Positions 43,934 through 54,220 of a DNA stretch of 64,000 bases are shown here, piece by piece. Positions within the stretch are counted from its first letter, which is position 1. The number at the start of each line of letters is the position of its first letter. The notes beneath the pieces were generated by a model. The model did no database searches and was not told the origin of the DNA. It was given only the letters and a program-made list of their open reading frames with translations. The stretch is from Desulfobulbaceae bacterium. GTDB lineage: Bacteria > Desulfobacterota > Desulfobulbia > Desulfobulbales > Desulfobulbaceae. A program made the translations under genes and the position numbers. The stretch spans positions 1 through 64,000 of the forward strand of contig JALSNC010000276.1 of the NCBI GenBank assembly GCA_026987195.1, read 5' to 3'.

Positions 43934-44050
43934 TTGGTAAAAGTCCAGGAATGTCAAAGTCGTTGCTGATAGCCGTGAGTTCTTGCGAATCTTGCGGCAA
44001 CGGATATGGTCTTCCATGCTGCCGCAGGCGGAACAGCTGTGAGCGCTTGC
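43934..44050. repeat. Mixed remnants of repeat families B/C and A
   Basis: TTGGTAAAAGTCC and CGTTGCTGATAGCCGTGAG come from the GGTAAWAGTTCA family. Some 60 bases on, CTGTGAGCGCTTGCC matches the right arm of family A. All lie in the spacer between the FmdB-type and uracil-DNA-glycosylase genes. Confidence 0.4.
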
Positions 44051-44162
44051 CAGTGAACGGTTACGATTCTGGTCGCAGTCACAAACAGGTATGAGGAAAG
44101 CCGGGCTGTCTTGCTGCCGCGGCCGCTTCTGATCTTATCAAAAATAAGCATCGGAGTTCCAC

Positions 44163-45053
44163 TTGTCAGCAAAAAAAACAGGAACAGATCGTCCTGAGAT
44201 CAGGACGCCTGACCCGGCGGCCGCTCTCCTGGTGGCACAGGAAGTGCGCCGCCTGCTGCGTTTTCATCTTGCCCTGGGCCTGGATGTCTATCCGGCCAGC
44301 GGACAGTTGCGGTCGTTTCTCGATGCTCACTCCGCCGACCGGCCCGGGCCGGTCACCCCACCGGCCGCCCTGCGCCGGCAGCGTCCCGGCCCGGAGCCCG
44401 GAAGGCGACAGGCCGTGGAATCCCGCCAGCCGGCCGATGCGGCCCTGGAGGAACTTGGACGAGCCGTGCAGGCATGCAGCCTCTGCGGCCTGGCGGAAAA
44501 CGGGCCGCATCGGAGCCGGGGGACAGGTGCCGAGGCGCCCCGGCTCCTGGTGGTAGGCGACTGGGCTCTTCGGGACAGGAGTGGTGCCGGCCGGATCTTC
44601 GGTCCCGGCGAGGACGAGATGCTCGCCAGGATGATGACGGCCCTCGGCCTTGGCAGGGATGACTATCATGTCACCAATGTGCTCAAGTGTTCTCCGGCCA
44701 CCGCCTCACCGCCATCCCGTGCCACTGCGGCCTGCCGTCCATGGCTCGAGCGTGAGATCGCCATCCTCCGGCCGCAGCTGATCTGCGCCATGGGCGAACT
44801 GGCAACGCAGGTGCTGACCGGCAGCAGCCAGCCCCTGGCCAGGCTGCATGGCCGGTTCCATGGCTGTCGATACGCAGCGGACCGGACCCCGCAGGTCCTG
44901 CCGACCTACCATCCTCGTCTTCTGCTCAGACAGCAGGAACTGAAAAAGGTTGCCTGGCAGGACCTGCAGAAGATACGCCGGTATCTGGCCCGGAGCAGGG
45001 GCCGTACCCGGCATCGTGCCCCGACGGCGGTGCCACGGCGGTCAACCCCCTGA
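44163..45053 (+). CDS. Family-4-like uracil-DNA glycosylase with atypical motif A
   Basis: A 296-residue protein with an extra N-terminal segment of about 100 residues. The core matches iron-sulfur uracil-DNA glycosylases. All four cluster cysteines are seen (CSLC, then NVLKC and ACRPWL), plus PTYHPRLLLRQ as the HP motif. Motif A is unusual: VVGDWALRDRSG stands where GEAPGxxE is expected, although FGPGEDEMLARM follows as usual. Activity or specificity may therefore differ. TTG start at 44163 follows GGAG. Confidence 0.75.
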   Translation: MSAKKTGTDRPEIRTPDPAAALLVAQEVRRLLRFHLALGLDVYPASGQLRSFLDAHSADRPGPVTPPAALRRQRPGPEPGRRQAVESRQPADAALEELGRAVQACSLCGLAENGPHRSRGTGAEAPRLLVVGDWALRDRSGAGRIFGPGEDEMLARMMTALGLGRDDYHVTNVLKCSPATASPPSRATAACRPWLEREIAILRPQLICAMGELATQVLTGSSQPLARLHGRFHGCRYAADRTPQVLPTYHPRLLLRQQELKKVAWQDLQKIRRYLARSRGRTRHRAPTAVPRRSTP

Positions 45054-45125
45054 CCACGAAACAGATCTAAACGTGCCGGTATTTCAATGGAGTTGCCAAT
45101 GGGCGAAGAACGTAGGAGAGGTACC

Positions 45126-45662
45126 ATGCAGCAGTCCATTCTTCTGGTCGATGATGAGGATATGTTCCGTGAACGGCTTGGCCGAGCCTTTACCGCCCGT
45201 AAATACACTGTTTATCTTGCTGCCGGTTACCGGGAGGCCATGGCCCTGATTCGCAGGCACTGTCCGGACATGGCGGTGGTGGACCTGAAGATGCCCGACA
45301 AAAGCGGTCTCGATGTCCTCCGTGACGGCCTGGCCCTGCATCCGGCGATGCGCATCGTGGTGCTGACCGGTTACGGCAGCATCGCCACCGCCACCGAGGC
45401 CATCAGGGCCGGCGCGGTTTCCTACCTGCCCAAGCCTGCCGATGTGGACGATATCCTGTGCGCATTCAAAGGGGAGTCCCGCACCGCCAGCGGGGAGAAC
45501 GAGGAAGAGTTTCCGGTTCCCTCCCTTGCCCGCATGGAATGGGAGCACATCAACAGGGTGCTTCACGACTGTGGTGGCAATATCTCCGCTGCAGCGAGAA
45601 AGCTGGGTCTGCACCGGCGGACCCTGCAGCGGAAGCTGAATAAGTTTCCCCCGCTCCAGTAA
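45126..45662 (+). CDS. RegA/ActR/PrrA-type redox response regulator
   Basis: A 178-residue two-domain regulator. Receiver: acidic pair Asp9/Asp10, phospho-acceptor Asp53 (VVDLKMPDKSG), VLTGYGS, and KPAD with Lys104. Output: Fis-type HTH, HINRVLHDCGGNISAAARKL then GLHRRTLQRKLNK, close to the RegA/PrrA/ActR family that controls redox genes. No RegB-like kinase is adjacent. ATG 45126 follows GGAGAGG. It lies 414 bases upstream of the cytochrome operon on the same strand, so it is a plausible regulator of it. Confidence 0.87.
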   Translation: MQQSILLVDDEDMFRERLGRAFTARKYTVYLAAGYREAMALIRRHCPDMAVVDLKMPDKSGLDVLRDGLALHPAMRIVVLTGYGSIATATEAIRAGAVSYLPKPADVDDILCAFKGESRTASGENEEEFPVPSLARMEWEHINRVLHDCGGNISAAARKLGLHRRTLQRKLNKFPPLQ

Positions 45663-45731
45663 GGGCCGGATTCCCAAACACCCGCCCATCATCCCCCCCT
45701 GGTGCGCCACCACGCCTGCCCAGGAAATTTC

Positions 45732-45774
45732 TGTGGCACAATGTGGTGCGACAAATTGCCACATTGCAATACCA
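45732..45774 (+). promoter_or_regulatory. Candidate operator cluster upstream of the selenocytochrome operon
   Basis: The 414-base interval 45663-46076 has no gene. It contains TGTGGCACAATGTGG and, after 7 bases, AAATTGCCACATTGC: the words TGTGGCA and TGCCACA are exact inverted repeats, and AATGTGG occurs on both strands. The site could bind the adjacent Fis-type regulator. A sigma-54 reading (GG and GC 11 apart) is off by one base. Confidence 0.4.
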
Positions 45775-46076
45775 CGACATGGTGGTAGGCTTCTGGCTAT
45801 CTCCACGAATAAGAAACGGTTTTTCAGCAGCCGGATATTTTCTCCCACCGGGCCTCCGGCCGTTCTGATACCCGTTGGTCGATGTCCGGTTCCCGGCCGG
45901 CCCATGGTGCGGCAGACCGCATCTCCGTGGCGAGCCTGTCCATGATTTTACACTGTTCCCTGCAGCGGACCCCTGGCTGCGGGAACGGTTTGCGGCTTTT
46001 TCCATTTTTTCAGTTGCTGTAAGGGGAACAACGGCTTCGTTGTATCGTCAACAACCAAAAAGGAGGAGCAACTAGA

Positions 46077-47432
46077 ATGAAAAGAAAGACACAGGGAATG
46101 CTGATCGCAACCACTTTCCTGGGCCTTGCCCTGGCCTTTGGCACGGCCGGGCCGCTCGCTGCCCAGGAAGCGGACTCGAGCAGTGCCTGCATCGACTGTC
46201 ACACCGACCTGGAGGAGATGGACAGTTACGGTGCGGCATCGGCCAGTGGCGGTGCCGCCATCGCGGGCTGAGGCGTTTCTGCCCCTCAGGTGAGGGGCCG
46301 GGATACCTATGGTGTTGCCAAGGATTTCGTCGAGTCCGTTCACGGCGAGATCGGCTGTATCAACTGTCACAAGGGCCACAATGTCGAGGACAAGGACGAG
46401 GCCCACAAGGACATGATCAAGGACCCGTCTGAAGAGGGTGGCGGCGGTGTCTGCCAGGAATGTCACGAGGAGATCACCTCCACCTACAAGGATGCTATGC
46501 ACTACAAGCTGACCGGTATCCTGGATATCGTCGGCACCATCACCTCGCCGCACAAGATGGAGGACACCCTCCTGCCCGAGGCCTGGGAACTGGACTGTGC
46601 CGACTGTCATGCCAGCTGCGGCTCCTGTCATGTCGCCTGGCCGGCAGTGGCCAAGGGCGGTCTGCTCGACCGGCACCGGTTCAAGAAGACCCCGCCCATG
46701 GACAAGACCTGCTATGCCTGCCACGGTTCCCGTTTCGCCGGTGAGTACATGGGCAAGCTGGGCGCCACCGCCGACGTCCATTACGAAAAAGGCCAGATGG
46801 TCTGCACGGACTGCCATTCCGCCGACCACCTGCACAACACCCAGCCCAAGGGCGTGAAACGGTACTATGCCACCAAGACGGTGCGCTGCGAAGAGTGCCA
46901 TCCCGATGCCGCCAGGCCGGGCCGCTCCAAGGTGGCCATGCACAATGCGCATCCGGAAGGAACGCTCGCCTGCGCCGTCTGTCATGCCAACACCTACTTC
47001 AACTGTGCCAACTGCCATGTAACGCTGGACATCAAGAAGCCGGGCCAGGTCAAGGTCATCTTCCCGTCCGAGCCGCTCTATACGTTCAAGATCGGGACCA
47101 ACATCGACCGCAGCCCCGAAAATCCATACAAGTACAACCTGGTGCGTCATACGCCCATGAAAAAGGACTCCCTGGCATCGCTGCGCTACTGGCAGGCGGT
47201 CCTCAAGGGCAAGCCCGGTCCCGAGGACCTGGTCGCCAACTATGACGCCCTGCCGACCTGGAACTCCGCCTCTGTGCACAGTATCCAGCGCCGGACCAAA
47301 CAGAACCGCTCCTGTAATGCTTGTCATGGCCACAAGGAACTCTTCCTCACCAAGGCAGACCTGGCCAAGGACGAACCAAAAGCCAATCTGAAGATTATCG
47401 TGGAGAAGATTCCGGCCGAGATCAAGAAGTAA
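46077..47432 (+). CDS. Selenocysteine-containing undecahaem c-type cytochrome (in-frame UGA at 46269-46271)
   Basis: One reading frame of 452 codons with a single internal TGA read as Sec65. Signal peptide 1-29 (LGLALAFGTAGPLAAQ). Eleven CxxCH haem sites: CIDCH at 38, then CINCH at 94, CQECH, CADCH, CGSCH, CYACH, CTDCH, CEECH, CAVCH, CANCH and CNACH near the C-terminus. Evidence for recoding: the frame is identical on both sides, haem motifs flank the TGA, the upstream part has AAGGAGG and a signal peptide while the downstream part has neither, and a SECIS-like hairpin follows. It would be a periplasmic electron carrier or reductase working with the two rhodaneses downstream. I recall, unverified, that cytochromes near rhodanese genes in Geobacter (ext cluster) have a similar feature. 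selA/B/C are not in the window. Confidence 0.87.
46269..46307 (+). promoter_or_regulatory. Bacterial SECIS-like element for Sec65
   Basis: UGA followed at once by a hairpin. The apical stem GCCCCTC/GAGGGGC (46281-46287 with 46292-46298) is 7 bp with loop AGGU (46288-46291). The lower stem 46272-46280 with 46299-46307 pairs G-C, G-C, C.A, G-U, U-A, U-G, U-G, C-G, U.C. The loop GGU is 18-20 bases after the UGA; in E. coli fdhF it is at 19-21, also in an AGGU context. This is the expected SelB binding form. Confidence 0.85.
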
Positions 47433-47453
47433 GCGCTCACGGCACCGCAGAGA
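47430..47453. repeat. Family A arm fragment at the cytochrome stop codon
   Basis: GTAAGCGCTCACGGCACCGC resembles the left arm of family A (GTAAGCGCTCTCAGGGACCG); its second to fourth bases are the TAA stop of the cytochrome gene. Confidence 0.35.
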
Positions 47454-47488
47454 TCATCATGCACAAGCACGAATAAAGGAGTATTTCA

Positions 47489-48445
47489 ATGAATAGAACG
47501 CTGTTACATTCCGTGATTTTCATGCTGTTGCTGGCCGTGGCGGGCTTTGTCTCCGCGCCGGCGACGGTCGAGGCGGGAACCACCCCCCTGGTGACCACCC
47601 AGTGGCTGGCCAAGAACCTGGGCGCCAAGAACCTGGTGATCATCGATGTCAGGACCGAAACCAACTACGGGGTCGGTCATATTCCCGGTTCCTTCAATAT
47701 TCCCTATGTCGGCTGGGAGCCCTTCAACGAGAAGCGGCAGTGCCAGCTGATGCCGACGCCAGAGGAATTCACCAAAATGCTGCAGGCCATCGGTGTCAAC
47801 AAGGACTCGCACGTGGTCGTCTATGACCACGGCAACTCCATCGGCGACGCCACCAAGGGCGCGGCGACGGTCTGGATCCTCGAGGCCATGGGCCATACCA
47901 GGGTCTCCTATCTCAACGGCGGCTTCACCAAGTGGACCTTTGAGGGCCGCATCATCGACAACAAGAAGCCCAAGGCCAGCCCCGGCAACTTCGTGGCCCG
48001 GCTGGACGCCTCCAAGGTGGCCGGGCTGAAGGATGTCGTTGCCAGAATGAAGAAGAAGGGCGTTGTCCTGGTGGATGCCAGGAATTCCAACCAGCACTTT
48101 GGTGACGACAAGCGCGGTGACGTGGAGCGCTACGGGCACATTCCGGGTTCCATCAGCCTGCCGGCACCGTTTCTGAACAATGCCGGTGCCAACCGCGCAC
48201 CCGCCACCATCAGGGATGCCGGCCAGCTGGCAGAGATGGTCAGGGGTGTCGGCATCCCTGCCGACAAGAAGACGGAGATCATCGTCTACTGTAATACCGG
48301 CCAGTTCGCAGGGCTGGATTATGTTGTTCTCCATGATATCCTGGGCTACAGGAATGTCAGTGTCTACGACGGCTCCATGCTCGAATATGGCGCTGACGAG
48401 GACCTGCCCCTGGTCAGGTTCGCCTGGGGATCCACTGCCAAGTAG
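47489..48445 (+). CDS. Periplasmic tandem-domain rhodanese with active-site Cys268
   Basis: A 318-residue exported thiosulfate-sulfurtransferase-type protein. Signal peptide 1-29. Two rhodanese domains (about 35-160 and 175-315). The N-terminal domain has VVVYDHGNSIG where the active loop would be and is catalytically inactive, as usual. The C-terminal loop is VYCNTGQFAG with Cys268, able to form a persulfide. Good ribosome site (AAAGGAG). 56 bases after the selenocytochrome stop and clearly in the same operon. A role in delivering sulfane sulfur or selenium to or from the cytochrome is inferred. Confidence 0.9.
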   Translation: MNRTLLHSVIFMLLLAVAGFVSAPATVEAGTTPLVTTQWLAKNLGAKNLVIIDVRTETNYGVGHIPGSFNIPYVGWEPFNEKRQCQLMPTPEEFTKMLQAIGVNKDSHVVVYDHGNSIGDATKGAATVWILEAMGHTRVSYLNGGFTKWTFEGRIIDNKKPKASPGNFVARLDASKVAGLKDVVARMKKKGVVLVDARNSNQHFGDDKRGDVERYGHIPGSISLPAPFLNNAGANRAPATIRDAGQLAEMVRGVGIPADKKTEIIVYCNTGQFAGLDYVVLHDILGYRNVSVYDGSMLEYGADEDLPLVRFAWGSTAK

Positions 48446-48474
48446 CGTCTATTTACTGATCATGGAGGAATAGT

Positions 48475-49422
48475 ATGAAAAGTGTTTGCAGACTGAAAGC
48501 GTCTTTCATCGGCGTACTGCTGTTCATGTTCTGTCTGCCGGGCCTGGCGCTGGCGGCGGAAAGTTCCCTGGTGAGCGTTGACTGGCTTGCCAAGAATCTG
48601 AAAAAGAAGGATCTTGTGATCCTCGATGTCAGTGAGTTCATCCATTACGAGAAGGGCCATATCCCCGGCGCCGTCAAGGCCTTCGGCCCCTGGATGACCA
48701 TGAACCGTGACTTTGTCGGCTTCATGATGCCCGACCAGGAGACCCTGGTCGAGATGCTGCGCAGTTACGGGGTCAACAATGAGTCCTTTGTTGTTGTCTA
48801 CGACGAGGGGATCACTTCCAAGGACACGGCCAAGAGTGCCCGCGCTCTCTGGACCCTGCATACCCTGGGGCATACCAGGGTCGCCATCCTCGATGGCGGC
48901 ATGGCGGCCTGGGAACAGACGGAAAAACCGGTTTCCACCAAGGCCGCGGCGCCGCTGACAGGAAATTTCAGCGGCAAACTGGTGGCGGCCAAGGTGGCCA
49001 CCCTGGCCGAGGTCCGCAGGAAACTCGGCTCGTCCGGGGTCGCCTTTGTGGATAACCGGCTGCCGGAATACTACTTCGGTCACGAGAAGAATTCCGAGAT
49101 CAGCCGGGCCGGGCACCTGCCCGGAGCCCTGCTCTGGCCGGAGGAGTACATGACCATTGCCGGTGAGGATTTCGCGCCGTCCTACTTCAGGAAAAAGGAT
49201 GAGCTGGCACAGATGGCCAGGGGTATCCACCTGCCTGCGGACAAGAACGCCGAGATCATCACGTACTCCAACCACGGGCTTGCCGCAGCCATGGGCTACT
49301 TTGTGCTCCATGACCTGCTGGGGTACAGAAACGTCAAGCTCTATGACGGCTCGATCCTGGAGGCCGCCGAGGTCAAGGAAGTCCCCATGGTGGTCAATGC
49401 CTGGGGCTGGGAAAAGAGGTAA
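48475..49422 (+). CDS. Periplasmic tandem-domain rhodanese paralogue with Ser265 replacing Cys
   Basis: A 315-residue exported protein paralogous to the preceding one: the same two-domain layout, with shared blocks such as VLHDLLGYRNVKLYDGS against VLHDILGYRNVSVYDGS. Signal peptide 1-27 (ALAA cleavage). The active loop reads TYSNHGLAAA: Ser265 (codon TCC, 49267-49269) replaces the catalytic Cys. It therefore cannot make a persulfide in the normal way and may bind substrate or act as a partner subunit. GGAGGAA precedes the ATG; 29 bases after the first rhodanese. Confidence 0.88.
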   Translation: MKSVCRLKASFIGVLLFMFCLPGLALAAESSLVSVDWLAKNLKKKDLVILDVSEFIHYEKGHIPGAVKAFGPWMTMNRDFVGFMMPDQETLVEMLRSYGVNNESFVVVYDEGITSKDTAKSARALWTLHTLGHTRVAILDGGMAAWEQTEKPVSTKAAAPLTGNFSGKLVAAKVATLAEVRRKLGSSGVAFVDNRLPEYYFGHEKNSEISRAGHLPGALLWPEEYMTIAGEDFAPSYFRKKDELAQMARGIHLPADKNAEIITYSNHGLAAAMGYFVLHDLLGYRNVKLYDGSILEAAEVKEVPMVVNAWGWEKR

Positions 49423-49545
49423 GCCGGCAAGGCTGGATCCACCCGGGTCACAGCCGCAATCAACCATGACAACCGTTCGGTCCCCGGCACCACGGGACGG
49501 ACGTCTCCGGATGCCCTGAGCTGGCAGCCCGGGGTTGTGCACACG

Positions 49546-49576
49546 AAAAGAGGCGGGTTGACCCGCCTCTTTTTTG
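49546..49576. terminator. Bidirectional terminator after the rhodanese operon
   Basis: AAAAGAGGCGGG and CCCGCCTCTTTTTT form a 12-bp stem with TTGA loop. The T run on the plus strand ends the selenocytochrome-rhodanese operon; the A run serves the convergent pqqD-like gene on the minus strand. Confidence 0.92.
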
Positions 49577-49614
49577 TTCGCTGGCACGGATCTCCTCTGC
49601 AGCCGGCAATCGAT

Positions 49615-50001
49615 TTATTCTTCCATCCGCAGTGCCACCAGGCCGCGTTTGCCCAGTTCGCGGACAAAGGCGCTGACCGCGATCTCCGCCTCCCGGCTGC
49701 CAAGGCCGTTGCGGCGGGCAAAGATCTCCGCGATCTCCCGGACACTGCGCCGGTTGTCGATCATCTCCCAGACAGAACCGCCCATGGCGTCCAGTTGCAG
49801 TTTCCTGACAATGACAGGGGATGACCGGGCGGCCACGCGACGAAAGATACCCTGGAACCAGGGCTTGACCTCAACCGGATAACTGAGCAGGATACCCTCG
49901 TCGTTCCGGTGCTGTCCGGCCTCGGGGTTGCGGACCGGGATGCAGGCAAGGGCCTGCTGCCGGGGAATGGATGGCTGGTTCCGTTTCCTGAAAAAGGCCA
50001 T
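49615..50001 (-). CDS. PqqD-family (peptide-binding) protein
   Basis: A 128-residue protein. The C-terminal 80 residues match PqqD-like domains, which act as RiPP recognition elements: LDAMGGSVWEMIDNRRSVRE and a wHTH-like IAEIFARRNG. The N-terminal 45 residues (basic then Pro-rich) are not typical. No radical-SAM enzyme or precursor peptide is obvious nearby. It is the last gene of a minus-strand set with two unknown proteins and an ABC exporter. Confidence 0.75.
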   Translation of the reverse strand: MAFFRKRNQPSIPRQQALACIPVRNPEAGQHRNDEGILLSYPVEVKPWFQGIFRRVAARSSPVIVRKLQLDAMGGSVWEMIDNRRSVREIAEIFARRNGLGSREAEIAVSAFVRELGKRGLVALRMEE

Positions 50002-51655: not shown

Positions 51656-54220
51656 TCACTGTCCCGGCCGGGCCTGATGATGGCTCTGGACCAGGGCATG
51701 GAAGGCGCCTTTTTTGGCCATCAGTTCCTCGTAGGTGCCCTGTTCGATGAGTGATCCCGATTTGAGGACAAAGATACGGTCATAGGAGGGCGCCAGGTCC
51801 AGCCGGTGAATGACCGCGATCACTGTCTTGTTGCCACGGAACCGGTTGTCCATCAGTTCCTGGATCCGTGCCTGGGAGGCATTGTCCAGGCTGGCCGTGG
51901 CCTCGTCCATGATCAGGATCCCTGTATCCTTGAGAAAGGAACGGGCAATGGCCAGTTTCTGCTTCTGGCCACCGGAGAGCCGGTCCCCCTTGCTGCCGAT
52001 ATTGAAATCAAGACCGATATCGAGGACTTCGCCGAGCAATCCTTCCCTGGTAAAGGCGTCCAGGGCCAGCTGTACCAGGTGCTGGTTGTCCTTGAGTTCC
52101 TGTTTCATGGCGCCGAACAGGATGTTGTCGCGCAGGGTGTGGCTGTAGAGATACTCCGAGGGGCAGTAGGGGATGAAGTCCTTTTCCTCCTCAAAGGCAG
52201 GAAGCCGGGCCATGGTCCCCTGGTCGAGGAACTGTTCGGCCGCCCTGCAGCAGACATTGAGGTCGATCTTCATCACCTCCTCGAGAAAGACGTGACGGGC
52301 GGCCAGGATCTTGTCGCTCAGCCCGGGGTCCAGGCGGACGATATTGTGGCGGCCGGGAATGAACCGGAGGGCGAGGATCAGCAGCAGGTCCCGCTCTTCC
52401 TTCTGCCGCGGCACCTTTCCCCCGCTGTTGCGTACCAGCTCGTTGTAACGTTCGAGTTCCTCGGGCCGCATGGGACTGCCGCGGAAGAAGAATTCGTCCG
52501 TTCCCAGGTCCTTGAGCAGTTCCACGGTATGGCGGGCTATACCGTAGCCCAGCACCAGCAGGGGGTCTTCAAGCCCGGCGGAGCGCAGGAAGTCCCGGAA
52601 CATGGTGTCCTGCGGCAGCCTGTCGGTCTCGAAACGCCCGCTCAGGCTGTCGCCGAAGATCAGGTTGTCGCGTATGCTGGAATAGGAGAGGAACCTGCCG
52701 GCATCGTAGACCTCGATGACGCGGGTGAATTCCCTGTTCAGTTCACCTGAGATGATCTGCCGCATCCGCAGGAACTTGTTCTTGAGCGGCAGGACCCGCT
52801 GCCGTGGAATGATGGAATTGAACCCGAACCGCAGGACATCGTCCTCCAGGCCCACGTCGCGGATCACCCGGATCAGCGTCTCCCGGTCGATCTTCTCCTC
52901 GCGCCCCGCGGCCCGGACCCCGTAGAGGAGGTTGTCGCGGATGGTGCCGGTGAAGATGAATGGATGCTGTGCGATCATGGTGATGTTCCTGCTGACGTCC
53001 GCCTTGGTGAGTGTTGCCACGTCCTTGCCGTCGATGAGGATGGAGCCGCTGGTGGCATCGTAGAGCTGGGCGATGAGCAGGGCAAGGGTGGATTTGCCGG
53101 AGCCGGAAAAGCCCACCAGGGCAACCTGTTCATTGGGGTTGATCCGCATGGTGATGCGGTCGAGCAGGCTGACGCCGGAGTCGACGGTGAAGCCCACGCT
53201 CTTGACATCGATGGCGCCCTGCAGGTCATAGGGCTCCCTTCCCTCGGGCAGCAGGGGATGGGGCGGATCGATATCGAAGATCTTCATGATCTGCCGGTAC
53301 CGGATCTGCGCGTCCTGCAGGGACTGGTAGTACTCCAGCATCTCTTTCCACGGGTCATAGACCTTCTCGTAGGCCGACAGAAAGGCCACCAGGGCACCGA
53401 GGGTGAACTCGCCGTGGATGGCCAGGTAGCCGCCGACCAGAAACAGGATGAAGGGCCCCATGGACTGGAACAGGTTGTTGGCGAACTTGATACCGTATTT
53501 GACGATGAACAGCTTTTTCAGGTAGCCGTACAGGGTGCGGATGTGGTCCTGGATCCGCTGTTCCTCAAGCCGGAAGCTGCCGTTGGAATGGATCTCGTGG
53601 ATGCCGGAGATCGCCTCGTTGACCACGTTGGCCATGGCGCGGGTGGTCTTGATCCGTTTCTTGTTGAGCCGGTTGTAGCGTTTCTGCAGCAGCGGGATGA
53701 CGATCAGCTCCAGGGGATAGATGGAGATGCTGAGCAGGGCGAGCAGGGGGCTCAGACTGTACATGAAGCCGAGAAAGACCAGGAAGGTGAGCACCGAGGT
53801 GAGGGGGATGGCCAGGGCGCCGCCCAGGAAAAAACCGATGGCGTTCAGCTCCGAGGTCATGGCCGAGATCACGGTGCCGGGCTGCATCTTGCGATAGAAC
53901 TGCAGGGGAAGCTGGAGGATATGGTTGTAGAGCTCGGTGCGCATCTCCACCAGGATCTTCTGGCCGATGATGACCTGGAGGACGTTGATGGCGTACTTGG
54001 TGACACCGGCCAGGATCACGGCACCGATGTAGAGGCCGCAGTAGAGATAGAGCAGTTCAAGATCCTTGAGATGGATGGCCTCGTTGATGATCCGTTTCTG
54101 CATCTCCAGGGGAAAGACCTTGAAGAAGAGACTGGCCAGGATGATGGCGAGCAGCAGGAGCTGCATCAGCCGGTGGCGGCGGAGGATCCAGTAGAAAAGA
54201 GAGCGCTGGGTAACTCGCAT
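51656..54220 (-). CDS. ABC exporter (fused membrane and ATPase domains) with large NBD insertion
   Basis: An 854-residue half-transporter. TM domain about 15-300 (six helices, type IV exporter). NBD from about 335: Walker A GFSGSGKST (370-378), Q-loop Gln418, signature LSGGQ (748-752), Walker B ILIMDEA (768-774), H-loop His805. Normally about 75 residues separate Q-loop and signature; here about 330 do. The insert contains further copies of the post-Q-loop segment: TIRDNLLYG (426-434), SIRDNLIFG (515-523) and TLRDNILFG (695-703). Probably exports a lipid, peptide or polymer. Follows an anti-sigma gene on the same strand. Confidence 0.85.
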   Translation of the reverse strand: MRVTQRSLFYWILRRHRLMQLLLLAIILASLFFKVFPLEMQKRIINEAIHLKDLELLYLYCGLYIGAVILAGVTKYAINVLQVIIGQKILVEMRTELYNHILQLPLQFYRKMQPGTVISAMTSELNAIGFFLGGALAIPLTSVLTFLVFLGFMYSLSPLLALLSISIYPLELIVIPLLQKRYNRLNKKRIKTTRAMANVVNEAISGIHEIHSNGSFRLEEQRIQDHIRTLYGYLKKLFIVKYGIKFANNLFQSMGPFILFLVGGYLAIHGEFTLGALVAFLSAYEKVYDPWKEMLEYYQSLQDAQIRYRQIMKIFDIDPPHPLLPEGREPYDLQGAIDVKSVGFTVDSGVSLLDRITMRINPNEQVALVGFSGSGKSTLALLIAQLYDATSGSILIDGKDVATLTKADVSRNITMIAQHPFIFTGTIRDNLLYGVRAAGREEKIDRETLIRVIRDVGLEDDVLRFGFNSIIPRQRVLPLKNKFLRMRQIISGELNREFTRVIEVYDAGRFLSYSSIRDNLIFGDSLSGRFETDRLPQDTMFRDFLRSAGLEDPLLVLGYGIARHTVELLKDLGTDEFFFRGSPMRPEELERYNELVRNSGGKVPRQKEERDLLLILALRFIPGRHNIVRLDPGLSDKILAARHVFLEEVMKIDLNVCCRAAEQFLDQGTMARLPAFEEEKDFIPYCPSEYLYSHTLRDNILFGAMKQELKDNQHLVQLALDAFTREGLLGEVLDIGLDFNIGSKGDRLSGGQKQKLAIARSFLKDTGILIMDEATASLDNASQARIQELMDNRFRGNKTVIAVIHRLDLAPSYDRIFVLKSGSLIEQGTYEELMAKKGAFHALVQSHHQARPGQ

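Follow-up and report, generated by a model that had tools for sequence, protein, structure and literature searches.

Introduction

Multihaem cytochromes carrying selenocysteine (Sec) have been proposed before. The ExtKL selenocytochrome (NCBIfam NF040886, Geobacter and Desulfobulbales), proposed as a selenoprotein in 2007 (PMC1914089), is an exported multihaem cytochrome c of about five haems with one predicted Sec located after the haems in an IPDGUPTPNR context. Its cluster in Geobacter is linked to selenite/tellurite reduction (PMC5877670) and includes a rhodanese-family lipoprotein, ExtH (PMC6148476). A 2026 inventory of 119 selenoprotein families lists ExtKL, the GSU2204 family and an octahaem cytochrome of the tetrathionate reductase family (TIGR04315), some members of which are annotated with Sec (PMC13188914). 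The periplasmic thiosulfate sulfurtransferases, or rhodaneses (PF00581), are also related to the locus described here through its partner genes. A looser functional parallel may exist with the SoxAX and TsdA cytochromes, in which a chalcogen-bearing residue, Cys in these proteins, at one of a few c-type haems probably handles thiosulfate sulfur.

Here we analyzed a 64,000-nt window of contig JALSNC010000276.1 (GCA_026987195.1) from a member of the Desulfobacterota, whose closest named relatives are hydrothermal-vent Desulfobulbaceae metagenome assemblies. A preliminary description had interpreted one frame of this window as an undecahaem cytochrome gene recoded at an in-frame UGA, and had suggested a redox-active or sulfur/selenium-binding center next to a haem wire. 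Our analysis strongly supported Sec decoding, although the idea of a selenocytochrome was not new in view of ExtKL and the octahaem family. The preliminary description had also missed the strongest functional clue, a conserved rhodanese partner, with which the suggested center is consistent.

Results

A single reading frame with an in-frame TGA encodes an eleven-haem cytochrome

The sequence at 46077-47432 (+) is one frame of 451 codons ending in TAA, with a single TGA at codon 65 (46269-46271, +). A Shine-Dalgarno-like AAGGAGGAG at 46060-46068 (+) precedes the ATG at 46077, and a basic start, hydrophobic core and AAQ sequence pointed to an apparent signal peptide at about residues 1-30 (46077-46166, +). 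The translation contains 11 CxxCH motifs, one before and ten after the TGA, and matched Pfam Cytochrome_C7 and Cytochrom_c3_2, with PF14522 detected in 45 of 45 family members. Without read-through, the locus would yield a 64-residue peptide and a 380-residue ORF lacking a signal peptide, which begins at GTG 46290, the first start codon after the TGA in this frame.

The same assembly (designated G000) encodes the Sec machinery: SelA (E 2.9e-167), SelB (384 bits, over the curated cut-off), tRNA-Sec (73 bits, over the gathering score; ARAGORN anticodon tca) and SelD. Interestingly, there are two SelD genes over cut-off (contig C98:11666-12616 and contig C301:5602-6531), each with an in-frame TGA of its own, so that both look like selenoproteins.

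The TGA is conserved at one alignment column

The relatives fell into standalone proteins 70-97% identical to the window protein (group A), 34-38% identical proteins fused to a C-terminal tandem rhodanese (group B), and similar fusions without the TGA (group C). In all 38 distinct TGA-bearing relatives of groups A and B the TGA occupied the same alignment column. In contrast, the eleven group C sequences carried Tyr (10) or Cys (1) at this position, which could be explained by a codon path from TGA to TGC to TAC. The predominance of Tyr over Cys is unusual and would hide the family from searches that rely on Sec/Cys pairs. A profile search of a sample of 395 genomes of the phylum gave matches in 63, of which, by our count, about 46 held a cytochrome hit with an in-frame TGA, most of the rest being rhodanese-only hits. 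Extraction of a subset of these showed the same U column, in a GxGU[GA]G-like context, in about 40 more sequences forming groups D, E and F; one sequence (L112) was cut off at the site and another (L096) did not cover it. Four weak named hits were other multihaem cytochromes without a TGA at this site.

A phylogenetic tree placed all non-TGA members in one well-supported clade, sister to the fused Sec group and nested among Sec members. On that rooting Sec is ancestral and was lost once, with the caveats of midpoint rooting and long branches. SelA was found in 34 of 36 family-bearing genomes tested. The two exceptions were G170 (94% complete), which has the TGA form, and G128 (100% complete, two contigs), the only fully complete genome without SelA in this test, which has the Tyr form.

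These results bear directly on the trivial explanation of an ordinary stop, that is, a split gene, a pseudogene or a sequencing error, for which the only arguments are that translation table 11 reads TGA as a stop and that Sec has not been measured. The same TGA was present in many independent assemblies, no stop-split homologue was found, and dN was far below dS on both sides of the TGA (e.g., 0.145/0.62 before and 0.054/0.78 after, for the window gene against sequence L007). Together with the covarying hairpin described below, this made the explanation extremely unlikely as far as sequence can show.

A SECIS-like hairpin follows the UGA

A perfect 7-bp hairpin, with GCCCCUC and GAGGGGC strands closing an AGGU loop, lies at 46281-46298 (+), just downstream of the UGA. 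The hairpin kept its distance in relatives, with AGGU, GUU or GGUC-like loops. Folding of the single window hairpin against dinucleotide shuffles was not significant alone (z −1.7), and an Rfam scan of 44000-50000 gave only chance-level matches and no SECIS model. Against shuffles that preserved the protein and the codon usage of the gene, the mean z was −1.62 in group A (19 sequences), a modest effect, −3.18 in group B (19 sequences) and +0.13 in the Sec-less group C (11 sequences), which lacks the hairpin. The covariation was carried by groups B and E, where stem pairs changed on both sides: offsets 16/26 were C-G, T-A or A-T, offsets 17/25 were T-A, C-G or G-C, and offsets 14/28 were G-C or C-G, while the GUU loop was kept in 32 of 33 sequences. 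Taken together, the machinery, the conserved column and the hairpin leave very little doubt, at the level of sequence, that the UGA at codon 65 is decoded as Sec.

The cytochrome is paired with rhodanese

Two exported tandem rhodaneses with PF00581 domains follow directly in the window, at 47489-48445 (+) and 48475-49422 (+). The first keeps the catalytic-loop Cys (YCNTGQ) in the window and in many relatives, whereas the second has Ser at this place (YSNHG), as do group A relatives, and may be a non-catalytic partner. Group A loci with enough flank had both genes. In groups D, E and F nearly all loci had a rhodanese immediately downstream; two relatives (L136 and L137) had one upstream only, two others (L108 and L109) had enough downstream flank but no rhodanese match on either side, and a few had too little flank. 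Group E partners were mostly short single-domain rhodaneses with YCK.GGR. Groups B and C are true fusions, and the AlphaFold model of one fusion was of high confidence only in the rhodanese half, its PDB matches all being rhodanese-type sulfurtransferases. The fusion in one lineage and adjacency in the others is strong evidence for a functional unit, and we consider such a unit highly probable. No catalogued rhodanese fused to an eleven-haem selenocytochrome was found in the libraries and papers searched, and literature searches for such a fusion or for selenocytochromes of this kind found none, although most subscription journals were outside their coverage.

An ActR/PrrA/RegA-type response regulator lies just upstream at 45087-45662 (+). 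It adjoins the operon in one relative (L035) but lies elsewhere or was not found in other relatives, and so may not be part of the system.

The protein differs from ExtKL and the octahaem family

The window protein gave no match to NF040886, and neither it nor nine relatives reached any NCBIfam cut-off. Its Sec follows the first haem in a GxGUG context rather than the haem domain, and the ExtKL of this genome is a separate gene with its own TGA at contig C256:3159-4328, indicating that two unrelated selenocytochromes coexist. The window protein also did not match TIGR04315, the model of the eight-haem family; relatives matched far below its cut-off, and the best match in the genome itself had no TGA and was below cut-off. 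The table of 119 families contained no entry that fits this protein (PMC13188914).

The co-occurrence of a rhodanese-like protein and a selenocytochrome in the ExtHIJKL cluster of Geobacter raised the possibility that the present unit reduces selenite or tellurite, or handles selenium. Rhodanese 2 indeed matched ExtH weakly (E 2e-20, 73 bits, below its cut-off of 200), but only through the rhodanese domain. No porin or ExtI-like gene adjoins the locus in the window, the cytochrome is not homologous to ExtKL, and the link of ExtI to selenite is itself by deletion phenotype. We therefore regard this function as improbable.

An 88% identical gene is present in G006, a genome with exactly the chromosome length (3,596,428) of Desulfolithobacter dissulfuricans GF1, a cultured sulfur disproportionator (PMC9751629). 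A recent predictor reported 22 known and no new selenoprotein genes there, without its text showing whether this gene was among the 22.

Haem ligands and the proposed role of Sec65

Across 90 sequences only nine non-motif His (89, 110, 142, 200, 235, 253, 289, 292 and 401) were conserved family-wide for eleven haems. His358 was added in most of groups A, B, E and F but was absent in C and rare in D. This finding suggested that at least one haem may lack a conserved distal His, leaving room for an open catalytic haem or for Sec65 or Met241 as a ligand. The AlphaFold model of the cytochrome alone was not usable (mean pLDDT 53), and the cytochrome part of the fusion model was also of low confidence.

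Our preferred explanation, held with moderate confidence and without protein, activity or expression data, is that the gene makes a periplasmic eleven-haem cytochrome c, whose UGA at codon 65 is decoded as Sec by SelB and tRNA-Sec at the hairpin, and which works as one unit with the adjacent or fused rhodanese. In the proposed chemistry, the rhodanese takes sulfane sulfur from thiosulfate or polysulfide as a Cys persulfide and passes it to Sec65 to give a selenenyl sulfide (Se-S). Electrons arriving through the haem chain would split this bond and release sulfide, that is, a cytochrome-type thiosulfate/sulfane-sulfur reductase, or the same steps would run backwards to oxidize sulfide. Sulfur transfer to Sec, its direction and the substrate are inferred: sulfane-sulfur redox chemistry at Sec appears about as likely as not, and the reductive direction is only tentative. 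Group C has Tyr at the site, which cannot carry sulfur, so either group C works differently or the sulfur-carrier role is wrong.

The Tyr form suggests that Sec may instead, or also, be a haem ligand. In this alternative, Sec65 would be an axial selenolate ligand of a c-type haem, by analogy with Cys-ligated haems, setting its potential or forming the catalytic site, while the rhodanese supplies substrate but does not load Sec with sulfur. The shortage of conserved His is consistent with this reading, as are the residues replacing Sec, since both Tyr and Cys can probably serve as haem ligands. However, the residues around Sec are Gly-rich, the spacing to the neighboring haem motif is loose, and the other missing ligands could be non-conserved His or Met241, making this alternative rather unlikely on present evidence, which includes no usable structure of the cytochrome part.

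More broadly, it remains possible, though somewhat less likely than not, that the protein represents a previously uncatalogued, phylum-wide selenoenzyme in which Sec works directly with a c-type haem, as selenolate ligand or selenenyl-sulfide carrier, in sulfane-sulfur redox with a rhodanese. It would then be a third selenocytochrome family and a new route of thiosulfate/sulfur reduction or disproportionation in Desulfobacterota, with one lineage that replaced Sec mostly by Tyr. How sulfate-reducing and sulfur-disproportionating bacteria first handle thiosulfate and elemental sulfur is still unclear, and, if our reading is right, a widespread electron-transfer protein of these bacteria has gone unnoticed because its gene looks broken at the UGA.

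Elsewhere in the window, at 51656-54220 (−), an ABC transporter of 854 aa showed an ATPase region matching family models in two separate stretches, as if a long segment were inserted.
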